Below, one piece after another: positions 55,441 through 61,684 of a stretch of 64,000 bases of DNA. Position 1 is the first letter of the stretch; the number at the start of each line of letters is the position of its first letter. Under the pieces are notes generated by a model that was not told where the DNA came from, searched no databases, and was given only the letters and a program-made list of their open reading frames with translations. The stretch spans positions 322,118 to 386,117 of the forward strand of contig NZ_JH932300.1 in the NCBI RefSeq assembly GCF_000301055.1. The letters are read 5' to 3'. The position numbers and the translations under genes were made by a program. Origin of the DNA: Falseniella ignava CCUG 37419 (GTDB lineage Bacteria; Bacillota; Bacilli; Lactobacillales; Aerococcaceae).

Positions 55441-55636
55441 CTTGATACCTCCATCTTATTGTTCCATCTTAGCTTAACATATTTTCTACAAGATGAATAC
55501 GATTTTGCGGTTAGCAATCTTCACAGAATCTCCATATTTGTATAATAAATTCACAAATTATTCCGTATTTTGCTACAATTATTGGATGCATAGTATGTTA
55601 TACTATGAACGTACAATGAAGAAAGCGAGGGATTCC

Positions 55637-56332
55637 ATGTTATTGCTTAAATCCAAAAAAATAATACGTTGTATCGTGAGTGTCATCTTTTTTATATGTG
55701 TTAGTTTCCTAATTATTAACAGCACAACAGGCACTACTATTAACGCGCAATCTGAGAATGATATCGATGCACCGACAGAATACCATGGGCCCGTCAATCC
55801 ATATACCCCATACGGACAGTATGTGAGCTATCAATATCAGATCAACGGATCTCAACCGATGATTCAAGACGTCATCCGTGAGTATCAACCTGATAGTAAC
55901 GGTATATTTCAAGTGGCAATGTTTACGGTAGAAAATAATAGCGCGATTTGTCAAGTTTATCAAATAAGAGATCAAGGTATCTATTTGTTAGCGTCATACG
56001 ATAATTATTATAATGTGGAAGATTTGCGTAATGCTCCAACGACTCTGAGTCAGACACCTGTGTTGGTTCTCCCTTCAAATATTCAAGAAGGAATGTCTTA
56101 TGCCTCGAGTGCCGATGGAACAAAAATTCGAACAGTAGTTGAGACATCGATGAACTACGAAATTAACGATGTAGCCTATCAAGATGTTGTGAAAATCGAA
56201 GAGGAAGACTTAACTCACTCAGATTATGTTACAAATTACTATTATGCTCCTGCATACGGGCTGATTGTTGTAGAACGAGTTAATCAAGCGGGCGAGAGTC
56301 AAATATTGCTTCAAATTATGTCGGCTCAGTAA
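55637..56332 (+). CDS. secreted or membrane-anchored protein of unknown function
   Basis: The 231-residue product has an N-terminal hydrophobic segment (about 9-33, IIRCIVSVIFFICVSFLII) followed by AxA-like sites, so it is exported or anchored. The mature part (YGQYVSYQYQINGSQPMI, VQ/VVKIEEED, YYYAPAYGLIVVER) looks beta-rich and fits the general form of lipoprotein-like DUF3108-type domains, but I do not recognise the family. The start at 55637 has AAAGCGAGG upstream; two earlier in-frame ATGs have none. Confidence 0.75.
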   Translation: MLLLKSKKIIRCIVSVIFFICVSFLIINSTTGTTINAQSENDIDAPTEYHGPVNPYTPYGQYVSYQYQINGSQPMIQDVIREYQPDSNGIFQVAMFTVENNSAICQVYQIRDQGIYLLASYDNYYNVEDLRNAPTTLSQTPVLVLPSNIQEGMSYASSADGTKIRTVVETSMNYEINDVAYQDVVKIEEEDLTHSDYVTNYYYAPAYGLIVVERVNQAGESQILLQIMSAQ

Positions 56333-56395: not shown

Positions 56396-56475
56396 ATTTT
56401 AAATAATACAACACACGAAATTTGAATTCACTTTGCACTCAACCTCGATATACGTTGATATATCATCATAATAAA

Positions 56476-56547
56476 CACCGCTGGAGGGAATCGAACCCCC
56501 ATTTTAAGAACCGGAATCTTACGTGATATCCATTACACTACAGCGGC
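56476..56547 (-). tRNA. tRNA-Arg(CCG)
   Basis: The minus strand reads as a 72-nt cloverleaf: acceptor GCCGCTG with CAGCGGT, anticodon stem TAAGA / TCTTA around loop TTCCGGT with anticodon CCG at 34-36, and T-arm GGGGTTCGATTCCCT. CCA is not encoded. It reads Arg codon CGG. Confidence 0.92.
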
Positions 56548-56911
56548 ATAACGATTTTATTATACCTAAATATATCTAAAAAATAAAGCGATTATAACGA
56601 GAAGCTTTGAAGTAAAGTGAAATATACATAGAATCAAAAGTGTAACAAGAGACGTACCCTATGAATAATTATACTATTAGGGAAAATTAAATTTTAATTG
56701 CCAATGATTTCGATCCGACATCTTATGCTCAAACAAGACCTGTTCGAAAGGTTTATTTAAACTTACCTGTTATCAAAATATTTATCAAACATGGTTGAAT
56801 GAGTAAAAAGGTATCGATAAATTTATTTAAATTAATGATTTGAATTAATTCTTTTTTTAAATAAGTAATGTTATAATGTAAGTGTTATCAAAATAAAAGG
56901 AGCTGACTTTT
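56548..56911. other. gap between tRNA-Arg and the acidic lipoprotein
   Basis: No open frame or repeat array is supported here. It holds a -10-like GGTATAAT on the minus strand behind the tRNA and TGTTATAAT at 56870-56878 before the lipoprotein; both are probable promoters. The rest is AT-rich without visible structure. Confidence 0.6.
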
Positions 56912-58687
56912 GTGAAGAAACATTTATTAAGAGGAACGTTGTTATTGTCAAGTGCTTTTGTTTTAGTCGCATGTAGTAGCCAGCCAGATAGTGAACAAAC
57001 CGTTGAAGAAGTCACTACAGTGATTGAAGAAACAACGGAAGAGCAAGAAGAATCGAGCGAGCCAGAAGCAACTACTGAAGAAGCTGAGGCATCAGAGGAT
57101 CAAGAGTCAACAGAAGAATCTGAAAAAGAATCTAAAGATGAATCTGAAGAATCAAAAGAATCTGAAAAATCAAAAGAATCTGAAGCAACCGAAGAAGAAT
57201 CTAAAGAAGAAACTAAAGAAGAATCAAAAGAATCTGAAGAAACCGAAGAAGAATCTAAAGAAGAAACTAAAGAAGAATCTAAAGATGAATCTGAAGAATC
57301 AAAAGAATCTGAAGAAACCGAAGAAGCATCAGAAGAATCTAAAGAGTCTAGCGAAGATTCGGATGAAACATCTTCGGAAGAAACCCTTGTACTAAATCAA
57401 CATGAACTTGCTGAATTTGATGGTCAGGGAGACAATAAGGCGTACATCGCTGTTAATGATGTAATTTATGATGTTACAGACCAAGAATTAAAAGACGGTC
57501 ATTATGGTGATTATAAAGTTGGGGTAAATACACTTTATAATGTTCTACTATTAGGCGAAGATGAAGCATTGAAAGATCTTCCAATTGTCGGCGTTTTAGA
57601 AATGGTGGAAGAAACTGAGGAACCAGCTGAAGAAGTTGCTGAAGAAGATAGTCAAGATGAGAACGAGGATCTGCCAGCAATTAACCAAGAAGAGTTAGCT
57701 AAATATGATGGGCAAGATGGACGTAAAGCTTATATTGGTGTCAATGATGTTATCTATGACGTTACGGATCAAGAATTAAAAGATGGTTATTATGGTGATT
57801 ATAAAGTTGGCGTTAATACTTTATATAATTCGTTATTACTAGGTGAAGATGAATCACTGAAAGATTTACCAGTGGTTGGCTCATTTGAGAAATTAGTAGC
57901 GTCAGAGGAAGAGGAAGCTGTCGATGAAAGTGATGAAGCCGAAGCACAACCGCTTCAAGATGGAACTTATATTGTAACGAGCTCACCAAATTCTAAAGAT
58001 GAAGTCATTGAACAGATGATTACAGTTGAAGAAGGTAAGATTACAGAAGCTGCTTTTAAAGTACTTCATGGTGAAGAAGAAGTTGCCCTCGATGAAGCAG
58101 AAGCTCAAATCGTTGAAACATTGACAAAACAATTCGTCGATCAAGGGGAATTGTTGCTGCCAAGCGAAGAAGGAACGCCATTTATTGCGTACCAATTGAT
58201 TGCAAATAGTGAAATTTTACGTACATTGGCACAACAAGGAATGAGTGAAATAATCAACCTTGATGAGGTAGAAATGAAAGATTCAGAATATGTCGTTAAA
58301 GATTCTTTCTATGAAGTGACCTTGAAAGTTGAAAATAATGAAGTGAAAGCATTGGAAATCTCATCAGTCTCAAATGAGGAGGATGCTGAAATCGTTGAGA
58401 AATTCATCGAAGAATTTATGGGTGTAAAAACATTAGACGAATTGACATATGTTGCGGCAGAAGATGAAGATGAAGAAACAGCACAACGCAATCAAGCAAT
58501 ATATGAACACCTGAAAGGGTTAGTAAATTATGCAATCAATTTATCTAAGGTTCAAACGATTATCAATCTTGACGGACCAGTTGAGGAAGTAGAGGAATCA
58601 TCAGAAGAAGCAGAAGAAACAGAAGAATTAGAAGAAACATCAGCTGAAGAATCTTCAGAATCAGAAGAAGAAACATCTGAAGAATAA
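56912..58687 (+). CDS. large acidic lipoprotein with two heme-less cytochrome b5-like repeats
   Basis: The 591-residue lipoprotein starts with a lipobox (LVAC, Cys21). Residues ~30-155 are Glu/Ser/Lys repeats, a spacer across the wall. Two near-identical cytochrome b5-like modules follow (161-229 and 257-325; core NDVIYDVTDQELKDG), lacking the heme His residues. Then comes an FMN-binding-like region (~348-445, DGTYIVTSSPN), an unknown domain (446-551) and an acidic tail. The start is GTG at 56912 behind AAAGGAG. An electron-transfer or surface role is an inference. Confidence 0.82.
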   Translation: MKKHLLRGTLLLSSAFVLVACSSQPDSEQTVEEVTTVIEETTEEQEESSEPEATTEEAEASEDQESTEESEKESKDESEESKESEKSKESEATEEESKEETKEESKESEETEEESKEETKEESKDESEESKESEETEEASEESKESSEDSDETSSEETLVLNQHELAEFDGQGDNKAYIAVNDVIYDVTDQELKDGHYGDYKVGVNTLYNVLLLGEDEALKDLPIVGVLEMVEETEEPAEEVAEEDSQDENEDLPAINQEELAKYDGQDGRKAYIGVNDVIYDVTDQELKDGYYGDYKVGVNTLYNSLLLGEDESLKDLPVVGSFEKLVASEEEEAVDESDEAEAQPLQDGTYIVTSSPNSKDEVIEQMITVEEGKITEAAFKVLHGEEEVALDEAEAQIVETLTKQFVDQGELLLPSEEGTPFIAYQLIANSEILRTLAQQGMSEIINLDEVEMKDSEYVVKDSFYEVTLKVENNEVKALEISSVSNEEDAEIVEKFIEEFMGVKTLDELTYVAAEDEDEETAQRNQAIYEHLKGLVNYAINLSKVQTIINLDGPVEEVEESSEEAEETEELEETSAEESSESEEETSEE

Positions 58688-58705: not shown

Positions 58706-58752
58706 ATCTAAGAAACTTAGTAAAGTATTTCCTTTTCTAAGTTTCTTTTTGA
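58706..58752 (+). terminator. terminator after the acidic lipoprotein
   Basis: AAGAAACTTAG pairs with CTAAGTTTCTT, then TTT. Confidence 0.8.
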
Positions 58753-58870: not shown

Positions 58871-59491
58871 ATGAGTTTAAAAGCAGAATTAAGAACTCAA
58901 ACAGGTACAGGCGCAGCACGTAAAGCGCGTCGCGAAGGAATGATCCCTGTTTCGTTATATGGAAAAGATACTGAAGCTGTATCACTATTAATTAATCGTC
59001 GTGAATTTGAAGCGTTACTTAAAGCTGAAGGGACGAACGCGGTATTCGATGTTGAATACGATGGTAAGACCCAAAAAGTAATTTTACATGATTATGAACG
59101 CGCTGCTTTAAAAGATGAAGTATACAGTGTTGACTTGAACGCTATTTCAGCAGATCAAAAATTACAAGTTGAAGTACCACTTCACGCAGTGAATGTCGAT
59201 AGCGTTAAAGTTGGTATTGTAGAAGTTGTTATTAACGACATCTTAGTTGAAACGAAACCAGATTCAATTCCATCTCATTTTGAAATCGATGTAGAAGGAA
59301 TGGAAATTGGTGATACGAAGACGGTTGCGGACCTTGATAAACATGCAGGCGTTGAAGTATTATTAGATCCAGAAGAAGTGGTTATTACTGTATCTGCTCC
59401 AACTGAAGAAGCAGAACCAGTTGAAGATGACGAAGAAGCTCCAGAACCAGAAGTTATTGGTGAAGAAGCTGAAGAATCTGAAGAAGAATAA
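58871..59491 (+). CDS. rplY: ribosomal protein L25 / general stress protein Ctc
   Basis: The 206-residue protein has an N-terminal 5S rRNA-binding domain (AELRTQTGTGAARKARREGMIPVSLYG) and the C-terminal TL5 domain (about 95-180) ending in an acidic tail. The long form is known as Ctc in Firmicutes and may be stress-induced. AAGGAG precedes the ATG. Confidence 0.95.
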   Translation: MSLKAELRTQTGTGAARKARREGMIPVSLYGKDTEAVSLLINRREFEALLKAEGTNAVFDVEYDGKTQKVILHDYERAALKDEVYSVDLNAISADQKLQVEVPLHAVNVDSVKVGIVEVVINDILVETKPDSIPSHFEIDVEGMEIGDTKTVADLDKHAGVEVLLDPEEVVITVSAPTEEAEPVEDDEEAPEPEVIGEEAEESEEE

Positions 59492-60129: not shown

Positions 60130-60365
60130 GAAACAAAGAGAGATGACTAGTAATTATAGTGCAAACTTCAGCGAGATGATGGTAGGTGTGAATCATCGTT
60201 AGCCTGTAATGAATCCACATCTTATTCTGCCTATGAAAAACATCAAGTAGTGCCGGTCCCAGCCGTTATTGGTTAAGCGCAAGATTTATGATGAATCTTG
60301 AATTAGGGTGGTACCGCGACTGAACCTTTCGTCCCTTTCCAGGATGGAAGGTTCTTTTTATTATA
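60130..60365 (+). promoter_or_regulatory. T-box riboswitch, serine specific
   Basis: A classic T-box leader before serS. The conserved T-box AGGGTGGTACCGCG lies at 60305-60318. A terminator stem (AACCTT with AAGGTT, CGTCC with GGATG, 60326-60356) ends in a T-run. A possible specifier codon TCC (Ser), followed by A, is at 60214-60216. Uncharged tRNA-Ser should stabilise the antiterminator and allow serS transcription. Confidence 0.92.
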
Positions 60366-60382
60366 CAAAAGGAGGAAGTATT

Positions 60383-61684
60383 ATGCTGGATCGTAAATTT
60401 TTGAGAAATAATTATGAAGTAGCAAGTCAATTATTAAAAACGAGAGGTGTTGCTGGCGAAACGTTGGAAGAATATCGTCAATTAGATGTAGAACGTCGTG
60501 AATTACTAGTTCAAGTGGAAGAACTAAAACAATCACGAAATACCGCAAGTCAAGAAATTGCAGCTCTAAAACGTGAAAAACAAGATGCTACAGATAGAAT
60601 TGAACAAATGCAAGCTTTAGGTCAACAAATCGGCCAACTTGAACATCAATTATCCGAAGTAGAAGGTAAATTAGAACATATTGAACATCGCTTTCCAAAT
60701 GTACCGCATGAATCAACTCCTGTTGGAGAAGATGAAGACGATAATGTTGAGATTCGTCGTTGGGGTGAATTGCCACAATTTGACTTTGAACCGCTCAATC
60801 ATTGGGATATTGCTGAGAAATTAGGGATATTAGACTTCGAACGTGGTGGTAAGGTGGCAGGATCTCGTTTTGTTTATTATGTCGGTTTAGGGGCTCGTTT
60901 AGAGCGTGCCATCTACAACTTTATGCTCGATAAACACACAACTCAAAATGGTTACCAAGAAGTAATTCCACCTTATATCGTCAATGAGCAGGCGATGTTT
61001 GGAACGGGCCAATTCCCTAAATTTACTGAAGATGTCTTTCAATTAAATGACCACCGTGGTTTTACTTTAATCCCAACTGCGGAAGTGCCCCTAACCAATT
61101 ACTATTCAAATGAAATTATTCCTGAGGATGCTTTACCGATTAGATTAACGGCGCTATCTCCTTCATTCCGTTCAGAAGCAGGAAGTGCGGGGCGCGATAC
61201 ACGAGGACTTATCCGTATGCATCAATTCAACAAAGTGGAATTAGTGAAGTTGACCCATCCAAGTCAATCTTACCAAGAGTTGGAACTGATGACGCAAAAT
61301 GCAGAGGAAATTCTACAAGACTTAGGTATTCCTTATCGTACGATTGTGTTATGTACTGGGGATATGGGCTTCTCTGCTGCGAAGACTTATGATATTGAAG
61401 CTTGGATTCCAGGACAAGATCGATATCGCGAGATTAGTTCATGTTCTAACTGTGAAGACTTCCAAGCTCGCCGAGCTAAAATTCGTTTCCGTAATGAGGA
61501 CAAAAAGGTGGACTACGTGCATACACTCAATGGTTCTGGACTCGCAGTAGGGCGAACAGTTGTGGCCGTTTTAGAAAATTACCAACAAGCAGATGGCTCA
61601 GTGAAAATTCCAGACGTTTTAGTACCATATATGGGTGGAATTACTGAAATTACGGTAGACAACGCACGTTCAATTTATCGTTAA
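60383..61684 (+). CDS. serS: seryl-tRNA synthetase
   Basis: The 433-residue class II synthetase has the N-terminal coiled-coil arm (about 25-105) that grips the long variable arm of tRNA-Ser, and motif 2 and 3 regions ([60 protein letters not shown]). It charges tRNA-Ser. ATG at 60383 follows AAAGGAGG. Regulated by the T-box upstream. Confidence 0.98.

Follow-up and report, generated by a model that had tools for sequence, protein, structure and literature searches.

A pplA orthologue of Falseniella ignava without its flavinylation motif and with two inserted cytochrome-b5-like modules

This study concerns a lipoprotein gene of Falseniella ignava CCUG 37419 (Aerococcaceae), located at 56912–58687 on the + strand of a 64,000-nucleotide stretch of contig NZ_JH932300.1, the whole of which is referred to here as the window. 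By gene order, it is an orthologue of pplA, which encodes the flavoprotein of the pathway for flavin-based extracellular electron transfer (FLEET). The protein has lost the flavin-attachment motif of its C-terminal domains, several partners of the pathway are missing from the genome, and two cytochrome-b5-like modules stand between its spacer and those domains. We favour, with a probability of roughly 60%, the reading that this is a pplA orthologue left without the rest of its pathway, which now serves as a cofactor-poor surface binding or scaffold protein with two inserted modules. The gene, its parts and the downstream genes used as synteny anchors are as follows.

56895–56902, + strand: Shine–Dalgarno-like ribosome-binding site AAAAGGAG, read directly.
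56912–58687, + strand: PplA-descendant gene, 591 amino acids, an open frame with a GTG start, assigned by gene order.
56912–56974, + strand: lipoprotein signal peptide MKKHLLRGTLLLSSAFVLVAC, residues 1–21, with the lipobox LVAC at its end, read directly.
56975–57376, + strand: Glu/Ser/Lys/Thr-rich spacer, residues 22–155, a family trait (from the translation and from relatives).
57377–57622, + strand: cytochrome-b5-like module 1, residues 156–237, with His42 near ligand site 1 and ligand site 2 lost.
57623–57664, + strand: acidic linker separating the modules (translation).
57665–57910, + strand: cytochrome-b5-like module 2, residues 252–333, with Tyr at both candidate ligand-1 positions and ligand site 2 lost.
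57950–58285, + strand: first domain of the flavin mononucleotide (FMN)-binding type, flavin-attachment motif lost (profile against shuffles; model).
58169–58180, + strand: EGTP in place of the [ST]GA[ST] of relatives, with Pro at the acceptor Thr/Ser position (alignment).
58274–58570, + strand: second FMN-binding-type domain, from model and position only.
58571–58684, + strand: acidic Glu/Ser C-terminal tail (translation).
58710–58747, + strand: terminator-like stem-loop with a T run after it, −14.1 kcal/mol, z −4.5, not in the consensus-scan list.
58871–59491, + strand: synteny anchor, which we take to be the gene for ribosomal protein L25, 67% identical to the Ignavigranum gene.
60308–61684, + strand: synteny anchor, presumably serS, 73% identical to the Ignavigranum gene.

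Orthology to pplA follows from the place of the gene, because either a PplA-like gene or a FLEET operon occupies the same position ahead of L25 in relatives. As in the window, a PplA-like lipoprotein gene stands immediately upstream of L25 at loci L060, L063 (Facklamia languida), L064 and L065, and a full FLEET operon lies ahead of L25 in Ignavigranum ruoffiae (L059), Fundicoccus ignavus (L068), Ruoffia tabacinasalis (L075) and at L062. These operons encode a PplA-like protein, Ndh2, a prenyl synthase, ApbE, a dihydroxynaphthoate (DHNA) prenyltransferase, and EetA-like and EetB-like proteins, and the Ignavigranum operon gave family matches to Pyr_redox_2, polyprenyl_synt, FMN_bind (PplA, 239.5 bits), ApbE, DHNA polyprenyltransferase, Hpre_diP_synt_I and NusG_II. 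The names Ndh2, DmkA, DmkB, EetA and EetB are those that we presume for operon genes of this kind. The description of the cad locus agrees with the first ones (PMC7074142). In Facklamia lactis (L107), L25 lies about 1 kb downstream and FLEET genes are lacking, and in Globicatella (L061) there is a FLEET operon, with no L25 within the stretch taken. At the same place, other genera of the family have the gene for a lipoprotein that combines a Glu/Ser/Thr spacer with either one or two FMN-type domains. The upstream neighbours of the window gene (presumably PrsA and a HIT protein, together with the protein encoded at 55493) are also common to L060, L062, L064 and L065. The sequence-only reading had known of no described protein combining such parts, which would set this one apart; gene order places it instead as the PplA orthologue, and a wholly new family was rejected on the same synteny.

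The lipobox closing the signal peptide agrees with the earlier assignment of the protein as a lipoprotein, and the charged spacer described at the same time is indeed present. The 15 best of 107 candidate signal peptides scored against that of the window gene belong to PplA-like genes of relatives, with three genomes counted twice and rows assigned to genes by eye. The spacer was also considered as a special feature and rejected, acidic Glu/Ser/Thr spacers being ordinary in the PplA-like proteins of the family. The FMN-binding-like region that had been proposed from the sequence was likewise recovered, as two domains within a C-terminal region of 207 residues that precedes the acidic tail. Against a profile of 84 motif-bearing domains from named loci, with the window left out, domain 1 scored 25.9 bits, compared with a best score of 9.2 bits among 1000 shuffles. 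A model of the C-terminal region built with 40 relatives reached a mean predicted local distance difference test (pLDDT) score of 91.9 and contained two sheet-plus-helix units, and the three Foldseek matches obtained with this model at E < 0.001 were all chains of 3o6u (CPE2226 from Clostridium perfringens; best E 1.8e-5), so that domain 1 is supported by sequence and both domains by model and Foldseek. The [STA]GA[ST] flavin-attachment motif, which is found in 60 of the 61 named PplA-like open reading frames, is absent from the window protein. In the alignment the invariant Gly of the [ST]GA[ST] motif coincides with Gly75, and the local letters are EGTP, which puts a Pro at the flavin acceptor position. 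With the NCBIfam PplA model (NF041941), the window C-terminus scored 18.4 bits, the cut-off being 325; Facklamia languida scored 153.9, and the motif-bearing Ignavigranum protein, at 239.5, also fell under 325.

The loss extends to the partners of PplA. In the window genome there is no ApbE flavin transferase (present in 66 of the 76 family genomes), no UbiA prenyltransferase (found in 14 of 14 control genomes) and no Ndh2 orthologue, the only match being one of 31% over residues 6–113 in a 449-residue frame. Neither an FMN_bind domain nor cytochrome bd was found above the cut-off in this genome, and EetA and EetB were not found in the window, the only place where they were sought. When the PplA-like sequences of ten family genomes were judged by eye (G000, G002, G004, G020, G022, G027, G029, G031, G076 and G077), the motif was present in six, all of which have ApbE; of the four without it, two have no ApbE (the window genome and F. 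languida, G029) and two carry ApbE elsewhere (G002 and G022). PplA, the counterpart of enterococcal Cad, and the window protein have in common the position of the gene, a lipoprotein signal peptide, an acidic spacer (in this family) and two FMN-binding-type domains, whereas the window protein differs in the absence of the motif, in its score far under the family cut-off, in its two inserted modules and in a genome without ApbE, UbiA or an Ndh2 orthologue. The motif-less PplA-like proteins of F. languida, G022 and G002 are also comparable, with the same locus, no flavinylation motif and no FLEET genes there, although the cytochrome-b5 modules occur only in the window protein. PplA-like lipoproteins that have lost the flavinylation motif and carry no such modules are also seen at L060, L065 and L091.

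What is new in this PplA is the pair of inserted modules. No open reading frame of at least 60 residues in the 61 named PplA loci matched the module profile apart from that of the window. PF00173 matches occur in 19 of the 76 family genomes (two of them, besides that of the window, are weak), and outside the window they sit in separate proteins, as read from open-frame length and from the loci. Across the order, the window modules were matched in 37 of 395 genomes, in frames of 80–314 residues, the window excepted. Secreted-looking proteins with three cytochrome-b5 modules, every one with both histidines, are encoded at L005 and L007 (genomes G010 and G031), and the same three-module gene is broken into pieces at L047 (G088). 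In genus g4, whose genomes have one to three Pfam cytochrome-b5 matches each, the lipoprotein-like proteins encoded at L002, L003, L013 and similar loci are short and carry one bis-His module each. None of the papers listed by the literature searches describes a PplA with cytochrome-b5 modules in its title or the opening of its abstract, which leaves the absence of such a protein from print unproven. Separate searches on 6vz6, on 6nzx and on the Firmicutes modules turned up no information.

The assignment of the modules to a cytochrome-b5-like fold rests on sequence similarity. The whole protein scores 25.0 bits with PF00173 (cut-off 23.7), the single modules falling below the cut-off at 17.4 and 15.3 bits, and a two-module profile matched the PDB sequences 6vz6 (E 8.4e-8) and 6nzx (E 4.8e-5), in keeping with the duplicated cytochrome-b5-like modules of the sequence-only reading. 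With the Firmicutes cytochrome-b5 proteins (PF00173; 6vz6 and 6nzx; 80–150 amino acids; a three-module relative) they share the YDVT core and the length, and with the three-module relatives the tandem arrangement; they differ from these proteins in having lost the second His and in being fused into a PplA-like lipoprotein. In relatives, a conserved HxG and SPH His pair presumably ligates the heme. Both histidines are present in 41 of 45 distinct module matches by a loose pattern test on those matches whose locus was returned (the profile used includes some of these sequences and both window modules), and the other four are all fragments of the one broken three-module gene at L047. Both His columns are also invariant in a hand-chosen alignment of 14 relatives, to which the window modules are 23–39% identical. 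The second His is missing from both window modules, where approximately GED replaces SPH and the next residue. The first ligand position is ambiguous: MAFFT places Tyr43 of both modules there, whereas in the HMMER alignment to 6vz6 the residue opposite the first presumed ligand His is number 42 of the module, a His in the first copy and a Tyr in the second. The window modules therefore appear to lack the two axial histidines of a cytochrome b5. The earlier statement that both lack the heme-binding histidines holds for the second His and for the pair, but module 1 may keep a first ligand in His42.

The two modules have nevertheless been kept alike, as had been supposed. They agree at 59 of 82 residues and, in the DNA, at 174 of 246 nucleotides, and different codons are used at 29 of the 59 identical residues. 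Over the whole module the proportions of synonymous and nonsynonymous differences (pS and pN) are 0.73 and 0.17, and the Jukes–Cantor-corrected values are dS 2.76 and dN 0.197, the synonymous sites being near saturation. When the 72 nucleotide changes were placed at random in 2000 trials, a mean of 36.8 and a maximum of 46 of the 82 residues were identical, so that the likeness in protein lies above chance. Constraint is strongest in module residues 28–69 (39 of 42 identical, pN 0.06, pS 0.62), compared with pN 0.22 and pS 0.90 in residues 7–27, and a Tyr-rich core of 30 residues is the same at 28 positions in both copies. A chance or assembly duplicate was rejected, as the synonymous sites differ between the modules.

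We favour a surface binding or scaffold role because cofactor sites have been lost from both redox parts, whereas the added modules are under constraint. In the course of events that we propose, an Aerococcaceae lineage would have lost the rest of the FLEET pathway and kept its pplA orthologue, whose C-terminal FMN-binding-type domains would have retained their fold after the flavinylation site had gone. A Firmicutes cytochrome-b5 module would have been inserted in two copies after the spacer and ahead of the flavin-type domains, and these copies would have lost bis-His heme ligation and would then have come under purifying selection. The result would be a lipid-anchored protein in which an acidic stalk presents two near-identical binding modules to a ligand or partner, probably with neither bound flavin nor six-coordinate heme. 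The protein may bind a ligand, as the sequence-only reading had also proposed.

Several points weigh against this interpretation. The structure model of the modules, made from a two-row alignment, is unusable (mean pLDDT 46.8), and the pocket is not seen in it. Domain 2 taken alone scores 2.4 bits, within the shuffle range, and is undetectable by sequence, and the C-terminal 207 residues are just 17–27% identical to the 40 aligned relatives. Motif loss is not strictly coupled to loss of ApbE, because G002 and G022 keep it, and some of the gene absences could be gaps in an assembly whose draft is 98% complete. The architecture is found in a single genome, so that the estimate of constraint compares two copies within one gene, and partial gene conversion may account for some of the central likeness of the modules, since synonymous divergence is lower at their centre than in residues 7–27.

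The most interesting alternative is single-ligand heme binding, in which the protein would be a surface heme catcher with one axial ligand in each module (His42 or Tyr43 in module 1, Tyr in module 2) and would hand the heme on. Both modules keep a His or a Tyr at ligand position 1, and PGRMC1, a protein with a cytochrome-b5 fold that lacks the two histidines, is reported to hold heme through Tyr113 alone (PMC4802085). The window modules resemble the MAPR proteins, including PGRMC1, in their cytochrome-b5-like character, the absent His pair and a Tyr near ligand position 1, and the MAPR-type structures 1t0g, 1j03 and 4x8y are among the matches to the two-module profile; however, these matches are weak and non-significant (E 0.11–0.42), and heme binding by the window modules is only putative. 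The Trp at module position 38 and the Gly at position 28 that are conserved in relatives are replaced by Leu and Asp, and the module model gives no help, which makes this alternative doubtful. Doubt of the same order attaches to a broader version, in which the flavin protein, having lost its flavin chemistry, would have been rebuilt on the PplA chassis as a surface receptor, a bacterial analogue of MAPR receptors. The pocket of the added modules would have been reshaped around the Tyr-rich core, and their new ligand might be heme, held by one Tyr or His.

The gene might instead be kept mainly for a signal peptide that yields a peptide of the cAD1/pPplA type, while the mature protein drifts. 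In Listeria, the PplA signal peptide is reported to be cut to give a peptide pheromone, and the mature protein to be dispensable for pathogenesis (PMC4379056). Among eight PplA-like genes of the family (28 pairs), likeness is greater for the signal peptide (0.61) than for the first FMN-type domain (0.40), the controls PrsA, the 55493 protein and FmnB showing the reverse pattern, which is no more than suggestive of retention for a peptide. Over 39 wider loci, however, conservation is lower in the PplA signal peptide (0.42) than in the domain (0.55), the peptide exceeding the domain in 80 of 701 pairs, a result only a little better than that for FmnB (0.33 versus 0.54; 36 of 720 pairs). The purifying selection seen on the modules is a further argument that the mature protein is of importance. 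We consider this explanation unlikely.

The sequence-only reading had offered an extracellular redox device, in which modules and flavin-type domains would pass electrons via heme, non-covalent flavin or both. The ancestral roles of both parts are redox roles, and multi-flavinylated proteins with cytochrome domains are reported to exist (PMC8238504). Against this, neither module has the full pair of heme ligands, the second being missing from both, and the attachment motif, ApbE, UbiA, an Ndh2 orthologue and an above-cut-off cytochrome bd are all absent. Ndh2 is described as required for extracellular electron transfer in Lactiplantibacillus plantarum (PMC8837199). An ongoing role in electron export is unlikely because ApbE, the quinone prenyltransferase and Ndh2 are absent, and the redox device, which was not supported, is very improbable. 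A decaying remnant without function would explain why the motif, the partners and the cofactor sites have gone, but is scarcely credible given the 591-codon open frame with its ribosome-binding site and terminator-like hairpin, a between-module pN far under pS, and the compact, confident C-terminal model.

Upstream of the gene, the frame at 55493–56332 (+ strand) encodes a secreted-looking protein that occurs in the same neighbourhood in relatives, at 30–42% identity. A tRNA-Arg (ccg) gene at 56475–56548 (− strand) is the sole tRNA gene found in the window.

What PplA/Cad does beyond electron export and pheromone supply is a question posed in the title of PMC7074142. The F. ignava gene bears on this question as a case in which the functions of PplA have been separated naturally: the orthologue is kept, the flavin transferase, the quinone prenyltransferase, Ndh2 and the attachment motif are gone, and a module pair has been added. 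It also offers a simple biochemical case for asking if heme ligation can be given up by a cytochrome-b5 module that is then retained for another purpose.
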